DNA from: a bacterium
Lineage (GTDB): Bacteria; UBA8248
Assembly (NCBI GenBank): GCA_022828125.1
Contig: JAJEJD010000015.1
Span: 1-64,000 of the forward strand
DNA length: 64,000 bases
Direction of reading: 5' to 3'
In this document: positions 38,852 to 47,702 of the stretch, in pieces
Layout of the letters: each line of letters starts with the position of its first letter
Numbering within the stretch: the first letter of the stretch is position 1
The notes under the pieces: generated by a model
Told to the model about the DNA's origin: nothing
Databases searched by the model: none
The model's input: the letters and a program-made list of their open reading frames with translations, nothing else
Position numbers and translations under genes: made by a program

Positions 38852-39060
38852 TTTGCTTATCTCCCGTTTGGTTTCCACTTTTTCGTCGCCGTTATCTCTT
38901 CACTGCGTCTATTTTTTCTCCAGATTCCCCTCATCTTAACTTGTTTTTGAAATGGTTTGCATTCATTTTACAGGTTCTCCTTTTACAGTCTCGAAGGTGC
39001 GGAGCCTCAAACAAAACAAACCCTACTGTGCGATATTCGCAACCCGAAAAGGAATTGATG

Positions 39061-39981
39061 ATGAAAATCGGATTCATCGGACTGGGAAACATGGGGGCGG
39101 GCATGGCGGCCAACCTCCAGAAAGCGGGCTACGAGCTCGTCGTCCACGACATCGCCCCCGAAGCCGCGGCGGCTCACATCGAGCGCGGCGCGCTCTGGAC
39201 GGATTCCCCGGAGGAGGTCGCCAAGGCCTGTGAGATCGTCTTCACCTCCCTGCCGGGACCCAAAGAGGTGGAGAGCGTCGCCACGGGGCCGAACGGCATC
39301 CTGGCGGGCATCAGCGCGGGGAAAATCTACGTCGACCTGAGCACGGGATACCCTGCTGTCGTGCGCCGCATCCATGAAAAGTTTGCGGAAGCGGGAGCGC
39401 ACATGCTCGACGCGCCCGTGAGCGGCTCCACCATCGGCGCGAACACGGGCCGCCTCGCCATCATGGCGGGGGGCGATGAGGAGATATATGAGCGCTGCAA
39501 GCCCCTGTTCGACGCCATGGGAGACCATCCCACATATACCGGCCCGATCGGCACGGGCACCGTGTGCAAGCTCGCGCATAACTGCATGAGCTACGGCATC
39601 CAGACCCTCGCGGCGGAATGCTACTCCCTGGGCGTCAAGGCGGGCGCCTCGCCCGATGTCCTGGCCGAGACGATTCGTAACGGCGCGGTGGGCCGGGGCG
39701 TGCACTTCCACTTCATCTTCCCCGAGACGTTCTTCAAGGGGAAATTCGACGAGCCCCACTTCCCCATGAAGGGCGCGGTGAAAGACGTAGGCCTGGCGCT
39801 CAGGCTCGCCCGCGAGCACGACGTGCCCATGGCGATAGGCAACATCGCCTACGGGGAGCTCATCTCAGGCTTGAACCGAGGATGGGGGGAGGATGACGCG
39901 AGGCGCGCCATGACGCTCCAGGAAGAGCGCGCGGGCGGCGTGAAGATGAGAGTTTCAGAACAGGAGATTGACGCGAAATGA
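39061..39981 (+). CDS. 3-hydroxyisobutyrate dehydrogenase-family oxidoreductase
   Basis: NAD(P)-dependent beta-hydroxyacid dehydrogenase, 306 aa. N-terminal KIGFIGLGNMGAGMAANLQKAGY binds the cofactor, DAPVSGSTIGANTGRLAIMAGG is the substrate loop, and the catalytic Lys is in GTGTVCKLAHN. Start is ATGATG at 39058-39063 after AAAAGGA. The stop overlaps the next ATG (ATGA), so it leads the cluster of two F420-type oxidoreductases and, further on, the UGSC selenoprotein. Confidence 0.92.
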   Translation: MKIGFIGLGNMGAGMAANLQKAGYELVVHDIAPEAAAAHIERGALWTDSPEEVAKACEIVFTSLPGPKEVESVATGPNGILAGISAGKIYVDLSTGYPAVVRRIHEKFAEAGAHMLDAPVSGSTIGANTGRLAIMAGGDEEIYERCKPLFDAMGDHPTYTGPIGTGTVCKLAHNCMSYGIQTLAAECYSLGVKAGASPDVLAETIRNGAVGRGVHFHFIFPETFFKGKFDEPHFPMKGAVKDVGLALRLAREHDVPMAIGNIAYGELISGLNRGWGEDDARRAMTLQEERAGGVKMRVSEQEIDAK

Positions 39982-40982
39982 AACACGGAATCGCCATGCT
40001 GCCCCCCGCGCCGGAGACCTACGCCCACTGGTGCCAGCTCTCCGAAGAGGCGGGCTTCGACGTCATCTGGGTGCCGGACTCGCAATCCCTCTACCGGGAG
40101 CTTTACGTCTCGTGCGCCATCTGCGCGGCCAACACCTCGCGCGTCCTGCTGGGGCCGAACGTCACGAATCCCCTCACGCGCCACCCCGCGACGGCGGCGA
40201 GCGCCATCGCCACGGTGGATGAGTTCTCGGGCGGGCGCGCGCTGTTCGGGATCGCCACGGGCGACAGCGCCGTCCTGAATCTCGGCCTGCGCCCCGGCCG
40301 TGTTGACGATATGAGAGACTACGTTCTCGCCATGCGCGGGATGTTAGAGGAGGGCGCTGCGACTTACCGGGGAAAACCCTGCACGCTCAACTGGCACAAG
40401 AAGCGGGTTCCCCTTTACATCGCCGCAGAGGGGCCGCGCACCATCCGCCTTGCGGGCGAGATTGCGGACGGCGTCACCATCGGATGCGGCCTCACGCCGG
40501 AAGTGGCGGCGGATTCCCTCACCTGGCTCGAGGAAGGTGCGAAAAAATCGGGCCGTAAGGTGGACGATCTCGACGTCTGGTGGCTGGCGAAGGTGAACGT
40601 GCGCGAAGACGGCGAGCAAGCGCGCGAGGAGATCCGCATGGCGCTGGCCGCGAGTGCGCACCACGCCTTTCGCTTCACGACCGAGGGCAAGCGAGTGCCC
40701 AAGGAACTCCTCTCCGCCGTCGAAACCCTGAAGCAAGGATACGCGTTTCACGAACACGAGATGGTGGACAAACAGACGAACGCGGAACTCGTGGACGGGC
40801 TCGGCCTTCGCGAATATCTGCTCGATCGCTTCGCCATCGCCGGCAACCCCGCCGAATGCCGGCGGAAGATTGAGGCCATGAAGGCGACCGGCGTCGAGAA
40901 CTTGAGGATTGCCGCCCACGTTCACGACAAGCCCGCCTTCATCCGGGCATGGGGCCGCGAGATAATCGGCAAGATCGAGTAA
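39978..40982 (+). CDS. LLM-class F420-type oxidoreductase, paralog 1
   Basis: Luciferase-like TIM-barrel protein of 334 aa in the F420-dependent methylene-H4MPT reductase-like subgroup. Segments are SEEAGFDVIWVPDSQSLYRE, LGPNVTNPLTRHP, GRALFGIATGDSAVLNLGLRP and YIAAEGPRTIRLAGEIADGV. It is a clear paralog of the next gene (same length, aligned throughout). The ATG overlaps the dehydrogenase stop. Confidence 0.9.
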   Translation: MKHGIAMLPPAPETYAHWCQLSEEAGFDVIWVPDSQSLYRELYVSCAICAANTSRVLLGPNVTNPLTRHPATAASAIATVDEFSGGRALFGIATGDSAVLNLGLRPGRVDDMRDYVLAMRGMLEEGAATYRGKPCTLNWHKKRVPLYIAAEGPRTIRLAGEIADGVTIGCGLTPEVAADSLTWLEEGAKKSGRKVDDLDVWWLAKVNVREDGEQAREEIRMALAASAHHAFRFTTEGKRVPKELLSAVETLKQGYAFHEHEMVDKQTNAELVDGLGLREYLLDRFAIAGNPAECRRKIEAMKATGVENLRIAAHVHDKPAFIRAWGREIIGKIE

Positions 40983-40999
40983 CCGGAAAGGATATCTTC

Positions 41000-42001
41000 A
41001 TGAGACACGGCATTTCATTCAGACCGCCCGATACGGATTCGTTCGCCCGCTGGTGCAGGTGCGCGGAAGAACTCGGCTTCGATGCGGTATTCATCCCCGA
41101 TACCCAGTCTCTTTACCGGGAGGTCTACGTCTCGTGCGCGATATGCGCGATGGAGACGAGCGAGATCATCTTCGGCCCGTGCGTCACGAACCCCGTCACG
41201 CGCCACCCGGCGGTGGCGGCGAGCGCCATCGGCACCATCAGCGAACTCTCCGGCGGGCGCGCCTTCTGGGGGATCGCCACGGGCGACAGCGCGGTGCTGA
41301 ACCTGGGTCTCAGGCCCGCGAAGCTCGCCGAGATGCGCGAGTACATCCTCGCCGTGCGGGGGATGCTCGAAGAAGGGAGCGCGCAGTTCAAAGGGAACGA
41401 CGCCCGGCTGAGCTGGCATAAATCCCACGTGCCCATACACATCGCCGCCGAAGGCCCGAAAACGCTGCGCCTCGCGGGCGAGGTGGCCGACGGCGTCATC
41501 ATCGGAACCGGCCTCATCCCCGAAGTCATTGCCGACACGCTCTCCTTCATCGACGAGGGCGCCAGGAAATCAGGCCGCAGGGTGGAAGACCTCGACCTCT
41601 GGTGGCTGGTGGACGCCCACGTGGACCCAGACGGCGAGCGCGCCCGCGAGGACATCCGCACCGCCCTCGCCGCGAGCGCGCACCACTCGTTCGCCTTCAC
41701 GATGGAGAACAAGCGAATCCCCAAAGAACTCGAATCCGGCATCCGCGCGCTGAGAGACGGATACCAGACCTCGGAGCACGGCTTCATGGATAAATCCAAC
41801 AATGCGGCGCTCGTCGATGAGTTCGGTCTCAGGGATTACCTGGCTGATCGATTCGCCATCGTCGGCACACCCGAAGAATGCCAAAAGCGACTCGAAGACC
41901 TCGAAAACCTGGGCGTCAGGGGACTTCGCATCAACAACAACCTGCCCGACAGGACGGTCTTCATGAACGCCTGGGCGAAGGAGGTGCGGGGGATTGCTTA
42001 G
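41000..42001 (+). CDS. LLM-class F420-type oxidoreductase, paralog 2
   Basis: Tandem paralog of the preceding gene, 333 aa, sharing PDTQSLYRE, TRHPAVAASAIGT, GIATGDSAVLNLGLRP and HIAAEGPKTLRLAGEVADGV. The ATG at 41000 has AAAGGA about 10 bases upstream; the gap from paralog 1 is 17 bases. Two diverged copies side by side suggest either two related substrates or a heterodimer, as in bacterial luciferase. Confidence 0.9.
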   Translation: MRHGISFRPPDTDSFARWCRCAEELGFDAVFIPDTQSLYREVYVSCAICAMETSEIIFGPCVTNPVTRHPAVAASAIGTISELSGGRAFWGIATGDSAVLNLGLRPAKLAEMREYILAVRGMLEEGSAQFKGNDARLSWHKSHVPIHIAAEGPKTLRLAGEVADGVIIGTGLIPEVIADTLSFIDEGARKSGRRVEDLDLWWLVDAHVDPDGERAREDIRTALAASAHHSFAFTMENKRIPKELESGIRALRDGYQTSEHGFMDKSNNAALVDEFGLRDYLADRFAIVGTPEECQKRLEDLENLGVRGLRINNNLPDRTVFMNAWAKEVRGIA

Positions 42002-42147
42002 ACTCCCCGCGAGTGAAGCACCTGATTCCCCGCGGTCAGATGAAAACAGGGAATTCCCCTCAGGCAGCACCTTCGGTTAGAATGGTTGCAAATTATCGAA
42101 AAAGATGGTTTCGACCTCCCCGGAGGAGCACTCAAAGGAGGGTGGAC

Positions 42148-42702
42148 ATGAGCGAAATGACGAAGGAAAAAGAGAAGATACTCGTGTACGAACCCGTGGC
42201 GGAGGCTCCGGGCGCGAGCGCCGTCATGGCCGCGCGGCCCGAGAGCTTAAACGGCAAGAGCGTGGGTCTCATCAACAACACGAAGGATTTCACGGATGAG
42301 ATTTTCGACGTGATGGGCGCCGCGCTTGAAGAGCAATTCCCCGGCGTGCGCGTCGTGCGCTACCGGAAGGAATCCGTGAGCGGCGCATCGCCCGCCCTGA
42401 TGGAGCAGGTGGAAGGAGAGTGCGACGCCGTTGTTTCCGCACTCGGCGACTGAGGCTCGTGCACGTCGTGGAGTATCCACGACAGCGTCGCTTTAGAGAA
42501 ACGAGGGCTGGCCACGGTCACGGTCGTCACCGACGCCTTCGAGGCCTACGCGAAGCAACTCACCAAGCTGCACAAGATGAGCGAGCTTCCCCTCGTCACG
42601 CTGCCCCACCCCATTGCGGGCAGAAAGCGCGAGGAGGTGGACGAGATGTCGGCGAAAGCGAGCGCGCATCTGGCGTCCGCCCTCACGCAGGCGAGCGCTT
42701 GA
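42148..42702 (+). CDS. UGSC-motif selenoprotein with in-frame UGA (Sec102)
   Basis: Protein of 184 aa, if TGA 42451-42453 is read as selenocysteine. The frame before it ends VVSALGD and continues as GSCTSWSIHDSVALEKRGL, giving the signature U-G-S-C known from the UGSC selenoprotein family of marine metagenomes. Sec and Cys three residues apart form a redox pair like CxxC. The downstream part is protein-like to TGA 42700. Start ATG 42148 has a strong AAAGGAGGG. It follows the two LLM genes by 146 bases and precedes its partner gene by 7. Confidence 0.9.
42465..42483 (+). promoter_or_regulatory. SECIS-like recoding hairpin in the UGSC gene
   Basis: GTCGTGGA-GTA-TCCACGAC is a perfect 8-bp stem with a GTA loop at 42473-42475, starting 11 bases after the UGA. 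Stem start, stem length and loop size nearly match the hairpin found after the UGA of the osmC gene. Confidence 0.78.
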
Positions 42703-42709
42703 TATCGGC

Positions 42710-43810
42710 ATGGACGCGCCAGAGCCCGCCCGCCAGATAGCGCTCGATGAGGACGCGGGCGCGATATACGAGCACTTCTACGAGGAGGGCTGGACGGACG
42801 GGCTACCCGTCATCCCGCCGACCGAGGAGCGCGTCGCGGAAACCCTGCGCTTCACGGACTATGCGCCCCAAGACGTCATCGCCAACGTCCCGCCCAGAAA
42901 CGCCCCGGCCACGGTGGAGGTCATCGCCATCAACGCCGTGATGGCGGGCTGCAAGCCGGAATATCTGCCCGTTTTAATCGCCGCCGTGGGGGCCATGACG
43001 GAGCCGGCCTACAACCTCTACGGCCGTCAGACGACCACGCATCCGGGCGCGCACCTGATGATCGTCCACGGGCCGGTACGGAACGAACTGGAAGTCAACT
43101 GCCGCCAGAACGTCTTCGGCCAGGGCTGGCGCGCCAACGCGACGCTCGGCCGCGCGGTGCGGCTCCTGATGATGAACGCAGGCGGCGGCATCCCGGGGGT
43201 TACGGACATGGCCACCCACGGGCATCCGGGCAAATACGCCTACACCATCGGCGAGGACGAGGAGGGCAGCCCCTGGCCCGCTTTTCATGTGGATAGAGGC
43301 TTCTTGCCAGATACTTCCGCCGTCACCATGCTCTGCGCCGAGTCGCCCCACAACGTGAACGACCTGGTGAGCAAGACGGCCCACAAATACCTGGGCACGG
43401 CGGTGTCCGCCATGAGCCACCTGGGCGCGAACGGCGTATACCGGAGCGGGCTTCCGAGCGAGCAGATGCTGGTGCTGACCGCGGAAGCCGCCACCTGGCT
43501 TTCGAATCAGGGGTGGACGAAGGCCGACGTGTCCCAGTTCATCTTCGAGAACGCGCGCCAGCCGATTCGCCTGATGCGAGACCGCGGCGGCTTCGACATG
43601 ACGCCGCTCGCCCCTTTCGTGAATCTCGAAGAAGACGAGGACATGGCCCCCATCGTCCCTCGGCCCGAAGACATCCTCATCGTGGTCGCCGGCGGCCACG
43701 GCCGCCACATGCAGGCCGTCCTCACGGCGAGCTACAACCTGAGCGTGACCAAGGCGATCACGCGAAAAGACGGAACGCCGATGGGGTCGGTAAGGGAATT
43801 TGTGGAGTGA
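42710..43810 (+). CDS. Unknown protein partnered with the UGSC selenoprotein
   Basis: Soluble 366-aa protein of unknown function. The N-terminal EHFYEEGWTDGLPVIPPTEERV, then NVPPRNAPATVEVIAINAVMAGCKPEYLPVLIAAV, GHPGKYAYTIGEDEEGSPWPAFHV and a C-terminal ILIVVAGGHGRHMQAVLTASYN are distinctive. I recall this kind of protein next to, or fused with, UGSC domains, but not with an assigned activity. The ATG at 42710 is 7 bases after the UGSC stop, so the two are surely co-translated. Conserved Cys in MAGCKPE and NCRQNVFG could react with the Sec protein. Confidence 0.8.
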   Translation: MDAPEPARQIALDEDAGAIYEHFYEEGWTDGLPVIPPTEERVAETLRFTDYAPQDVIANVPPRNAPATVEVIAINAVMAGCKPEYLPVLIAAVGAMTEPAYNLYGRQTTTHPGAHLMIVHGPVRNELEVNCRQNVFGQGWRANATLGRAVRLLMMNAGGGIPGVTDMATHGHPGKYAYTIGEDEEGSPWPAFHVDRGFLPDTSAVTMLCAESPHNVNDLVSKTAHKYLGTAVSAMSHLGANGVYRSGLPSEQMLVLTAEAATWLSNQGWTKADVSQFIFENARQPIRLMRDRGGFDMTPLAPFVNLEEDEDMAPIVPRPEDILIVVAGGHGRHMQAVLTASYNLSVTKAITRKDGTPMGSVREFVE

Positions 43811-43827: not shown

Positions 43828-44319
43828 TTACTCAATCGGAAGCGTGTGCGTCTGGATGACTTCTACATCGAAGTATCGCTCCATTTGTTTGATGCCTTGA
43901 TCGTCAGAATAAATCGTATTTTCGTTTTCAGCGAGAGCTACGGCAAGGATTTGCCTGTCGTATTTCAGTTGCGCCTTGGTGAACGGAGACTGGGATTCGA
44001 ATACTCGGTTCTCATGGATTTTCTGTGTGACATGGACGAGTGTTTTGACAGCATCTACATCAAAACCCGCAATATGAAAGTGGCGGGACTGCTGCAACAT
44101 GAATATCCATTCGTCTATTTTTCCTTTCGCAATCACCAACACTTCGGCCAAAGCGGGAGTGGGTATGACGATTGTTTGAGATTTGGATTCGATTTCCCGG
44201 ATAAGACGATAAATCCGCTGGCTGACGTTGGTGAGCGGCTCTCCGGTGGCGGGATCATTGGGAGGCTTGGCGTTCGGTTGCACTAAAAACATTAGAGTCG
44301 TTGAATCGAATACCGGCAT
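43828..44319 (-). CDS. PIN-domain ribonuclease toxin-like protein
   Basis: Protein of 163 aa with PIN-fold acidic residues: MPVFDSTTLMFLVQ at the N-terminus, IPTPALAEVLVIA in the middle and KYDRQILAVALAEN with IYSDDQGIKQM at the end. The family (VapC-like) cuts RNA. The ATG overlaps the stop of the upstream small gene (TAATG). Base composition is clearly more AT-rich than its neighbours, a sign of transfer. A portal gene lies just upstream. Confidence 0.82.
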   Translation of the reverse strand: MPVFDSTTLMFLVQPNAKPPNDPATGEPLTNVSQRIYRLIREIESKSQTIVIPTPALAEVLVIAKGKIDEWIFMLQQSRHFHIAGFDVDAVKTLVHVTQKIHENRVFESQSPFTKAQLKYDRQILAVALAENENTIYSDDQGIKQMERYFDVEVIQTHTLPIE

Positions 44320-44641: not shown

Positions 44642-45997
44642 CTACCCCTCCAGGTTCATGCCGAACTGGCCCGCGAGGTGGGTGATGAGCTTGCCGGCGG
44701 CGTCATCGCTCATCCAGCCGCGCGAGGTCGCCGTTTCGAGCGCCGTGCTGACGCGCAGAAGCGCCTCGGACATCTTATCCGTATCGCGCACGGAGATATC
44801 CGGCAGAACAGGCGAGACGCCCGGGCGCAGCGCTTCCTCGGGCAGCGCGCCTGCGCGGCGGGCTTCTTCGAGCTGCTTGTCGGCCATGGCTTGCAGGATA
44901 TGGCGCACGGTGCGCTGGCGGCGCGTCATCTTCTTGAGCGTCGGCTGATCCATCGACTCGGCCGACGCGCGGTTCACGTCCTCTCCCTGGGCGAACCAGT
45001 GGGAGGGAACCCCCACGCCGCCGAGCAACAGGCCCCGCATCATCCTGGCGATACCCTGCGCGCCGGACTCGCCGCCTTTCAGGTCGGGCGAGACGGCCTG
45101 CCACTCCTCTTTCTCGTTGTGCACGCGCACGCTCGAGGGCTTGGGCGCGACGCCGTTCTCGGCAAGCCACTCGGCTATCTTCTCGGGGCCTGCGCCCTTG
45201 AGCGTCACGTCGTAGATGAAGCTGTTCTGCAGGCGCGCGCGTTCGACGGCATCGAAGATGAAGCGCTCATAGGTGTCTATCCAGTCGATGGCGGCGAGCA
45301 GGTCCGAAGCGCCCCGCGCGGCGTCGCTCGCCTTGTTGATCTGGAACAGGAACGCCTCCCCGTCCGTGAAGCGCTCGCGCTCCCGCCGGGCGGAGGCGCT
45401 CAGATAGCCGCGCGGGTCGCCGCCAAGGACCGTCTTGACCCGCTTGCCCTTGCGCGCCGCGCCGCCCGGCTCCCGGGCGCGCAGGACGACCCCTATCGGC
45501 AGGGCGCAGTTGTCCGGGTCTGTCACCACCTCCTCTATCAGGCGCGGGCTGACGTAGCCCAGGCGGACGCGCCCCTCGAAGCGCGAGACGGCGACGGGCA
45601 GTAAGAGTTCGCCGAAGATGCCGAGTTCGGAGACCAGCCGCTCGAAGCGGATGTCCATCTGGTTCACGGGGTCGGCCCAAAAGGCCCTGACTGCCTGCAG
45701 GGCGCGCTCATCCTCGGAATGCCAGCTCACTCCCTCGCCCACGACGTGATCCGTCACGATCTCGATGAGGCGCTGGCCCATGAGGTTCGTGAGCCATAAT
45801 TCATACGCAAGCGCCTGCATGCGCGCGTGGGTGTAGGGCGAAACACCGCTCCGCCCCTCGCCGAGGGGCCGCCAGATCCGCTCGTCCGGATCAACCGCCG
45901 CGCTCGTTCGCCTGGTACGCTGCGCGGCCTCCCCTTTTCTCTTGAATCCCGACTTCCGCCCGGGAGCCTTCACCCTCTTCACGCTCTCCATCTTCAT
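44642..45997 (-). CDS. Phage portal protein
   Basis: Portal of 451 aa, forming the DNA gateway at one capsid vertex. Typical segments are NLMGQRLIEIVTDHVVGEGVSWHS, ELGIFGELLLPV, INKASDAARGASDLLAAIDWIDTYERFIFDAVERARLQNSF and GVGVPSHWFAQGEDVNRASAESMDQPTLKKMTRRQ. The ATG at 45997 overlaps the terminase nuclease stop (ATGA). Normally protease and capsid genes follow directly; here they lie 9.5 kb further left. Confidence 0.88.
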   Translation of the reverse strand: MKMESVKRVKAPGRKSGFKRKGEAAQRTRRTSAAVDPDERIWRPLGEGRSGVSPYTHARMQALAYELWLTNLMGQRLIEIVTDHVVGEGVSWHSEDERALQAVRAFWADPVNQMDIRFERLVSELGIFGELLLPVAVSRFEGRVRLGYVSPRLIEEVVTDPDNCALPIGVVLRAREPGGAARKGKRVKTVLGGDPRGYLSASARRERERFTDGEAFLFQINKASDAARGASDLLAAIDWIDTYERFIFDAVERARLQNSFIYDVTLKGAGPEKIAEWLAENGVAPKPSSVRVHNEKEEWQAVSPDLKGGESGAQGIARMMRGLLLGGVGVPSHWFAQGEDVNRASAESMDQPTLKKMTRRQRTVRHILQAMADKQLEEARRAGALPEEALRPGVSPVLPDISVRDTDKMSEALLRVSTALETATSRGWMSDDAAGKLITHLAGQFGMNLEG

Positions 45998-46647
45998 CTC
46001 CTCTTGAGCATCCGGTGCTCGAAAACCTGCGGCGTCACCGTTCCCCCGGCGATGGGGGCCAGCACGCCCTCGCTCTGCGCCAGGGATTCGGCCAGCCGCG
46101 CATAGGCGCAGGCGAAGCCGAAGTGATTCTCGTTCCGCTCATACGCCAGCACCGTCTCACCGGAGGAGCGGATGCGCGGTTTTTTCCTCAAATTCATCAG
46201 GTGACGCTCCACCTCGGCGAGGAGCGCCTCATCCCCTGTGTCCCTGGGACTCGGCAGCAGGACCCGCCCGGCCCCCTCGTGAAACTCCTCGACCAGGTGA
46301 TCCAGAAGGTCCTCGCGGTTCATCCGCACGTGGCGGCGCTCGACGCCCAGAAACGAGACGTCCCTGGCCTGCATCTCCCCTTCGGTGTGCCGCCAGATGA
46401 AGCCGCCGTCGGGGTTCAGGTCGTACACCGCGCGCGCCGCCTGGGTGTGGGGTCCGCCGTCTATGACGAACGCCTCCACACCCAGGCCGGAGAACACGGC
46501 GCGGCACCGCTCGACGAGCCGCTCGATGGGAGGCGCCTCGAAATAAATCCACCGGGCGGGCCGGCCCTCCTCATGGTAGCGCTCGCGCACCGCGAGGGCG
46601 CAAGCGTCGCCCGTATCGATTCCGCCGAAGCGGTGGGGCGCGCTCAT
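45994..46647 (-). CDS. Terminase large subunit, separate nuclease domain
   Basis: Protein of 217 aa resembling the C-terminal RNase H-like nuclease of GpA-type terminases. The metal-binding acids fit FGGIDTGDACAL, EAFVIDGGPHTQ and the end motif NENHFGFACAYARLAE. It begins at ATG 46647, overlapping the stop of the ATPase gene (ATGA). In most phages these two domains are one protein. Confidence 0.8.
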   Translation of the reverse strand: MSAPHRFGGIDTGDACALAVRERYHEEGRPARWIYFEAPPIERLVERCRAVFSGLGVEAFVIDGGPHTQAARAVYDLNPDGGFIWRHTEGEMQARDVSFLGVERRHVRMNREDLLDHLVEEFHEGAGRVLLPSPRDTGDEALLAEVERHLMNLRKKPRIRSSGETVLAYERNENHFGFACAYARLAESLAQSEGVLAPIAGGTVTPQVFEHRMLKRR

Positions 46648-47702
46648 GCGGGCGCCTCCGCCAGGCGGTACGGCGCGGCGTCCCGCAGACTTCTAAGCAG
46701 TTCAAGCGAAATCGGCTGGGTGTCGCCCGCATCGGGGATGGCGAGGGCCGAGCAGCGAAAGCGCGCCTTTTCACTCGGAAGACGGGCGGCGGCCCATTTC
46801 GCGGCGATCCGGTCCAGGCGTATTGCGCCGACCGAGAGCTGGGAGAGGCGATAGCTCCTGTGCCGCCGGTTCGCCCGCGCGGCCACCCACCGTCCCGCTC
46901 CTCCCTTGAGCGCGCCGCCGCACTCCGGACAAGCGAGCGCGCACGCACGCAGGATGCCGGGCCAGTACTCCTCCGGAACGCTCTCCGTGCGGCACGTCGG
47001 GCATCTCACATGCCAGCGCCTCCGATCCCCCGCCTCGTACATGGCGTGAATGCCGGCACCCGGGGTTCTGCCGACGGCCAGGTTGAGCGTCAGAGCGAGG
47101 GGCGAGGCGTCGATGCGGTCGTTCGACCATTTGAGGTTGTCCGGCGGAAGATCGTCCACCTCGTCGCGAACGAGCACGTCGAGCGGGATGGATATGGCGT
47201 TGCCGATGTCTTTGAGGCCCAGGACGTAGAGAAAACGCGAGCCCCCGCGTCCGGGGAATTCCTTCAGGCCCTTGGGGGATGCGCCCTTGTATCTGCCCTC
47301 GCGCATGATCGAAGCGATGTTCTCGCGCCTGAGCGCGGGGCGCACGCGCGTCTGATCGAAACGATCCGCGAAATCCTGATCCGGCAGAAAATAGCCCACG
47401 TTCAGGCGGTGAACGATGACGCAGTAGAGCGCGAAACCGATGGCGAGGGTGGTCAAGCCCACCTGCGCGCCCTTCAGGACGCTGATGGTCCGATCGGGCA
47501 TGCGGCAATTTATAATCTCATCCAGCGCGGCGACGATTTCCAGAAGCGCCTCTCTGCCCTCGAAGGTGAACGCGCCGGTGTCGGTCGACATCTCGCCGGT
47601 CAGGAACCGGGCCAGCCCGCGCGCCTCGCCCGGAAAGCGCGACGCACCGCCCGCCGCGAGGGCCATGCCGGGCGTATGGATGATTTTCAGGGATTTGCGC
47701 AA
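46644..47702 (-). CDS. Terminase large subunit, separate ATPase domain
   Basis: DNA-packaging motor ATPase of 352 aa, GpA-like. A Walker A-like VLKGAQVGLTTLAI lies at about residue 75, and Walker B is LDVLVRDEVDDLP. The zinc-type cysteines CPTCRTE and ACPECGG follow, as in GpA proteins. The frame ends before the nuclease, which is the next gene. Start TTG 47702 has GGAGG 10 bases upstream. The shared 22-base operator-like sequence lies 82 bases further upstream. Confidence 0.85.
   Translation of the reverse strand: MRKSLKIIHTPGMALAAGGASRFPGEARGLARFLTGEMSTDTGAFTFEGREALLEIVAALDEIINCRMPDRTISVLKGAQVGLTTLAIGFALYCVIVHRLNVGYFLPDQDFADRFDQTRVRPALRRENIASIMREGRYKGASPKGLKEFPGRGGSRFLYVLGLKDIGNAISIPLDVLVRDEVDDLPPDNLKWSNDRIDASPLALTLNLAVGRTPGAGIHAMYEAGDRRRWHVRCPTCRTESVPEEYWPGILRACALACPECGGALKGGAGRWVAARANRRHRSYRLSQLSVGAIRLDRIAAKWAAARLPSEKARFRCSALAIPDAGDTQPISLELLRSLRDAAPYRLAEAPA

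Follow-up and report, generated by a model that had tools for sequence, protein, structure and literature searches.

A UGSC selenoprotein and its adjacent partner as a putative two-subunit enzyme with probable kinship to GrdB and PrdB

The window analysed here is a stretch of 64,000 nucleotides (positions 1 to 64,000 of contig JAJEJD010000015.1, GenBank assembly GCA_022828125.1) from a bacterium of the GTDB lineage UBA8248. An in-frame TGA in one of its genes is, in our reading, almost certainly decoded as selenocysteine (Sec), which makes the product a member of the UGSC selenoprotein family. We also find that this protein and the product of the gene that follows it very probably form a single enzyme, and that its Sec-bearing domain is likely related to that of the reductase subunits GrdB and PrdB.

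Decoding of the in-frame TGA

The UGSC gene (42148..42702, forward strand) starts at an ATG at 42148 with a strong Shine-Dalgarno-like sequence, AAAGGAGG, read in front of it (42134..42141, forward strand), and runs to a TGA at 42700-42702, giving a protein of 184 amino acids. The internal TGA (42451..42453, forward strand) is codon 102, in the context ...ALGD-U-GSC-TSW..., and supplies the first residue of the UGSC motif. The protein scores above both curated cut-offs of the family, matching Pfam PF24696 with 157.2 bits (cut-off 25) over residues 13-180, unbroken across the TGA, and NCBIfam NF041046, which likewise spans it, with 139.7 bits (cut-off 125). Among 62 aligned UGSC members all have U or C at the first position of the motif, and 59 keep the UxxC arrangement. 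A first-pass annotation made from the letters of the sequence had placed this TGA inside a U-G-S-C frame continuing to 42700, and these coordinates are exact. It had also described UGSC as a known family with no assigned chemistry, in agreement with a 2026 review that lists UGSC selenoproteins without function (PMC13188914); the 2008 Global Ocean Sampling (GOS) paper ranks UGSC among the major selenoprotein families of aquatic metagenomes (PMC2398784). In marine and freshwater metagenomes it is among the most abundant families of selenoproteins, and it has had no function attached to it from its naming onwards.

Downstream of the TGA lies a bacterial hairpin of the selenocysteine insertion sequence (SECIS) type, GTCGTGGA-GTA-TCCACGAC (42465..42483, forward strand), with a stem of eight perfect pairs that begins 11 bases 3' of the TGA and a GTA apical loop, just as the annotation had positioned and paired it. 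The amino acids encoded here, TSWSVHD, by themselves favour a hairpin, and the test for selection was therefore run with the amino acids fixed and the codons redrawn by local usage, in 500 synonymous recodings over 78 Sec copies. The Sec copies keep 7.24 of the eight stem pairs, against 4.82, and at most 5.23, in the recodings. The apical-loop serine codon is AGT in all 68 of 68 copies, where 5.5 would be expected; the Cys forms have AGC there or, in its place, a TGC cysteine codon. Changes on both sides of the stem are seen at seven of the eight pairs, and all covariation measures exceed those of 500 out of 500 shuffles and of all slid versions. The hairpin is under selection beyond codon needs and is conserved at the RNA level.

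The genome from which the window is taken (32 contigs, 97% complete) holds the whole decoding apparatus that the annotation had suggested looking for, namely a tRNA-Sec (75.9 bits, with ARAGORN in agreement), selB (384 bits) adjoining selA (576 bits), and selD (335 bits), which has an in-frame TGA of its own followed by a hairpin. The same genome carries eight UGSC paralogues, each with exactly one TGA and all in the same column (8/8), even though the other seven are only 27-37% identical to the window copy. Across 18 genomes of the phylum the TGA is present in 89 of 90 UGSC copies, the lone exception being a fragment in which the site is missing. A further set of 80 loci, picked via the partner gene from other bacteria and one archaeon, has TGA in 82 and Cys in 4 of its 88 UGSC copies. 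The four Cys forms (CGSC), aligned at the position of the TGA, belong to a member of the Binatia (L070), to Natrialba asiatica (L075) and to two sphingomonads (L103 and L135); homologues run on past the TGA and show cysteine in its place in distant genomes, as the annotation's own proposed alignment was meant to reveal. All three findings that the annotation had named as fatal to its reading are contradicted by these results. Of 14 Sec-form genomes sampled, 13 have a tRNA-Sec scoring 63 bits or higher. The four Cys-form genomes have none at that level, their best matches reaching at most 51 bits, where other long-arm tRNAs also score; the formal cut-off of 47 bits is attained by the best matches of three of these four, and the call of absence is a reading of the gap in scores.

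Automatic gene calls would end this gene at 42451, given that TGA closes the reading frame under translation table 11, and the codon could in principle be a true stop or a mutation in a truncated or decayed gene whose 3' half yields a separate product or none. Against this stand three orthologues with 93-94% DNA identity, in which the TGA and the hairpin are unchanged and most differences, 5' and 3' of the TGA alike, are synonymous (29 of 44 changed codons in the 3' part), a pattern of purifying selection. Together with the same TGA in eight divergent paralogues and across the phylum, the Cys forms in genomes lacking a clear tRNA-Sec, the selected and covarying hairpin and the complete machinery, this leads us to reject the pseudogene or true-stop explanation as extremely improbable.

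The partner protein and its tie to UGSC

The gene directly downstream (42710..43810, forward strand) encodes a protein of 366 amino acids, and its ATG at 42710 is 7 bases past the UGSC stop codon. Profile searches and a direct PDB search recovered no Pfam, NCBIfam or PDB sequence relative, and membership of any Pfam family is ruled out by the lack of a Pfam match. Foldseek returned weak matches to class I fumarase and cyclic-amide hydrolase (template modelling score ~0.3, none with E<0.001), which we do not interpret. The family has marked conservation of its own, with Asp30, Gly31, Arg148, Glu182 and Trp189 invariant in 62 of 62 aligned members and a near-invariant Cys81, in a MAGC motif, kept in 61 of 62.

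The two genes are closely tied across genomes. In the 80 loci a UGSC gene lies on the same strand within 700 bp of the partner in 86 of 97 copies, with UGSC first in 70 and the partner first in 16. These loci had been chosen by the partner, and the counting was therefore repeated from the UGSC side, where 22 of 28 copies have an adjacent partner and the remaining six constitute one orthologous group; the window genome's member of that group has four tandem partners about 3 kb away. The genome has 15 partner paralogues in all, about half of which adjoin UGSC copies. At one locus (C11:29060) UGSC and partner are fused in a single frame broken only by the Sec TGA, and similarly long frames, not read individually, occur in other genomes. 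The divergence of UGSC and that of the partner are correlated (r=0.77; the highest value among the permutations was 0.15), to which shared ancestry contributes. Because of the linkage and the natural fusion, UGSC and its partner very probably act as one two-subunit enzyme; the annotation had guessed at such a functional unit from the 7-base spacing, and the comparative evidence, including the correlated divergence, supports it.

A fusion of this kind has been noted before. Zhang and Gladyshev (2008; PMC2398784) mention a 'UGSC/Unknown_1' fusion of UGSC with a conserved Cys-containing domain of no known function. Unknown_1 may be the same partner family. Unlike in that fusion, the partner described here is mostly a separate adjacent gene, found in several bacterial phyla and a haloarchaeon. 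Apart from the 2008 fusion, the pairing with the partner, the kinship with GrdB/PrdB and the eight-fold expansion are not described in the portions of the literature examined and appear to be new.

Predicted fold, kinship with GrdB/PrdB and candidate chemistry

Comparison of the UGSC profile with one built from the window genome's four GRDB-family genes and their relatives gives a profile-profile match with P=7e-9 in which the Sec columns are aligned, and the match persists with P=6e-7 when the Sec column and five columns to either side are masked. In controls the best of 40 column shuffles reached 0.045, the reversed profile 0.11 and the best of 33 unrelated families 0.005. In both families the Sec precedes a similar helix (UGTxTRSG...LExxGIPTV in GRDB, UGSCTSW...LEKRGLATV in UGSC), and both show a two-subunit organisation, a probable one in the case of UGSC. 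From these profiles we consider UGSC and the Sec-bearing C-terminal domain of GrdB/PrdB likely to descend from a common ancestor; UGSC itself does not belong to PF07355. UGSC differs from GrdB/PrdB in being a single short domain and in having a partner unrelated to the pyruvoyl subunit GrdE/PrdA. In each of the four GRDB-family genes the frame ends at a TGA and, with this read as U, goes on as U-G-T-G-T-R-S or U-P/G-L-C, and the lone GrdE homologue of the genome adjoins a full-length GrdB gene. These four genes are L035 (G000:C15:262831), L036 (C19:225508), L037 (C5:84444) and L038 (C17:5347); the GrdE gene stands beside the C15 copy only, and the other three are PrdB-like, without GrdE/PrdA.

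An AlphaFold2 model of UGSC computed from 62 sequences (pLDDT 95) has five strands alternating with helices in an alpha/beta sandwich of Rossmann/flavodoxin-like arrangement, with Sec102 at the N-terminus of the helix following strand 3. The most conserved residues are Asn44 and Lys46 after strand 1, Lys74 after strand 2 and Asp101-Sec102 after strand 3, followed by Phe131 shortly after strand 4 and His154 after strand 5. As modelled, they would all cluster near the C-terminal ends of the strands, where folds of this kind usually have their active-site rim. A direct PDB sequence search with the protein found no relative, and Foldseek searches with the model returned generic alpha/beta folds only. 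The PDB likewise contains no sequence relative of GrdB, and so Foldseek could not have shown a link between UGSC and GrdB.

GrdB/PrdB use their Sec for reductive cleavage. The Sec attacks a substrate bound to the partner subunit, and the Se-substrate intermediate passes to a selenenylsulfide that is recycled by a dithiol (PMC10298544). A GrdB-related operon has also been linked to cleavage of the C-F bond of fluoroacetate (PMC10838667).

With the homology to GrdB/PrdB and the conservation of UxxC as grounds, we propose, as a tentative analogy that falls somewhat short of an even chance, that Sec102 and Cys105 carry out reductive bond cleavage together with the partner. In this scheme Asn44, Lys46, Lys74, Asp101 and His154 would line a pocket around the Sec102 selenolate, which would attack an anionic substrate, or one of carboxylate type, bound where UGSC and the partner meet. 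The resulting Se-substrate adduct might be resolved by Cys105 or by Cys81 of the partner as the substrate bond is cleaved, and the selenenylsulfide would then be recycled by a dithiol such as thioredoxin. The substrate would probably derive from the catabolism of acyl-CoA compounds or carboxylates, and the many paralogues of one genome, eight of UGSC and fifteen of the partner, may serve different substrates. To our knowledge, GrdB/PrdB are the only enzymes that break C-N bonds via a selenoether intermediate.

Other UGSC-partner loci of the genome adjoin genes for CoA-transferase III, crotonase, acyl-CoA dehydrogenase, FAA hydrolase and an aliphatic-sulfonate-type ABC transporter. Acyl-CoA genes are enriched about four-fold: the 81 kb surrounding the eight UGSC loci contain 8 of them, where 400 kb of that genome would predict 2.0 (Poisson 0.001). 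The test is post hoc, counts clustered genes as independent and is optimistic to that extent. We lean modestly towards a two-subunit reductase with a Sec nucleophile that acts on carboxylate or acyl-CoA substrates.

Several observations weigh against this reading. The genes next to the UGSC loci differ from locus to locus. The likeness to GRDB is seen in profile-profile comparison only, over about 90 residues; the Pfam GRDB model PF07355 has no match in the UGSC protein and is not one of those listed for the relatives of UGSC, and a single-sequence hmmsearch with the GRDB profile did not match UGSC. The partner, compared with the genome's own GrdE, gives P=0.33 and is not homologous to GrdE/PrdA, the pyruvoyl subunit adjacent to GrdB/PrdB, a candidate identity that is hence ruled out. 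About seven partner paralogues of the window genome have no adjacent UGSC, and three of the 62 aligned UGSC members read UGSS and lack the resolving cysteine.

The strongest competing explanation is a general thiol/selenol-disulfide oxidoreductase of the thioredoxin (Trx) type, whose UxxC would reduce disulfides or peroxides, the partner being either its protein substrate or a relay for electrons. The position of UxxC at a helix N-terminus and the near-invariant Cys81 of the partner fit such a role, and a Trx-like fold was proposed for UGSC in the 2008 GOS paper (PMC2398784). The predicted fold contradicts that proposal, since the model alternates five strands with helices and does not follow the beta-alpha-beta-alpha-beta-beta-alpha order, and the Foldseek matches listed include no Trx-fold structure; on these grounds we reject the Trx fold. 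The conserved Lys, Asn, Asp and His at the strand ends point instead to a substrate pocket, and the paralogues sit in differing catabolic neighbourhoods. We regard a Trx-like role as unlikely.

Less probable again is a non-reductive enzyme in which the Sec/Cys pair acts as nucleophile or acid-base, as in an isomerase, hydrolase or lyase of the Asp/Glu racemase or acyl-transfer kind. Neighbours with CoA chemistry, the alpha/beta fold and the retention of both U102 and C105 in nearly all members are compatible with it. The Asp/Glu racemase profile (PF01177) scored P=0.006, within the range of the random controls and no better than these, by which membership of that family is ruled out, and the homology points to GrdB/PrdB. 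We also know of no Sec enzyme other than SelD that uses its Sec for anything except redox chemistry.

If a reductase is nonetheless the correct reading, UGSC and its partner could represent a third branch of a Sec-dependent reductase superfamily, beside the glycine/betaine/sarcosine and D-proline reductases. Such a branch, which we put forward as speculation with roughly one chance in three in its favour, would dispense with the pyruvoyl subunit, have many substrate-specific paralogues and serve carboxylate and acyl-CoA catabolism in aquatic bacteria in place of Stickland fermentation. Compared with the UGSC family as previously described, the copies studied here share the motif, the Sec codon and the downstream hairpin, and differ in a predicted non-Trx fold, a defined partner family and the presence of eight Sec paralogues within a single genome. 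The partner family, the non-Trx fold with its mapped pocket and the kinship with GrdB/PrdB make UGSC a testable two-protein enzyme, and the Cys version in a named isolate, Natrialba asiatica, would permit an assay that does without Sec incorporation. That a single genome has eight Sec paralogues suggests a heavy and specific investment of selenium in carbon catabolism.

Divergent copies and neighbouring genes

The UGSS subgroup, in which the second Cys of UxxC is absent, comprises L014 (C31:1891), L069, L073 and L078, and the SECIS stem of L069 and L073 does not pair in the register of the family. Two more divergent UGSC relatives with neither Sec nor Cys at the motif, each with a partner copy adjoining or nearby, are possible non-redox offshoots, one reading GEGGN with Glu at the Sec position (L119:6026-6475) and the other CDQGVTQNCC (L095:3164-3691). 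Partner paralogues without an adjacent UGSC are found at G000:C5:175396-179528, C15:286542, C22:314470 and C22:335074, four of them in tandem; they make up a PWSDGLPVV subgroup whose members may function on their own or with a UGSC in common.

Upstream of the UGSC gene and on the same forward strand, the cluster is headed by a 3-hydroxyisobutyrate dehydrogenase-like gene (39055..39981; PF03446 and PF14833). It is followed by a luciferase-like (LLM) oxidoreductase gene, a probable operon neighbour (39978..40982; PF00296, 169 bits), and by a second LLM oxidoreductase gene directly upstream of UGSC (41000..42001; PF00296, 182 bits), whose start at 41000 was placed inside the longest open reading frame (ORF), 40949-42001. 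Neighbours of the Bug/TctC family occur at 21 loci and were not used as evidence, because the family is very common in Betaproteobacteria. Three public metagenome-assembled genomes titled Bordetella parapertussis (L073, L077 and L096) have UGSC-partner loci amid typical aquatic betaproteobacterial genes, and the organism label looks wrong. On the reverse strand of the window a PIN-domain-like ORF (43828-44319) is convergent with the partner gene, and lambda-type portal-like and GpA-like terminase ORFs just past the pair (44642-47702) resemble a prophage remnant, as read from their translations.
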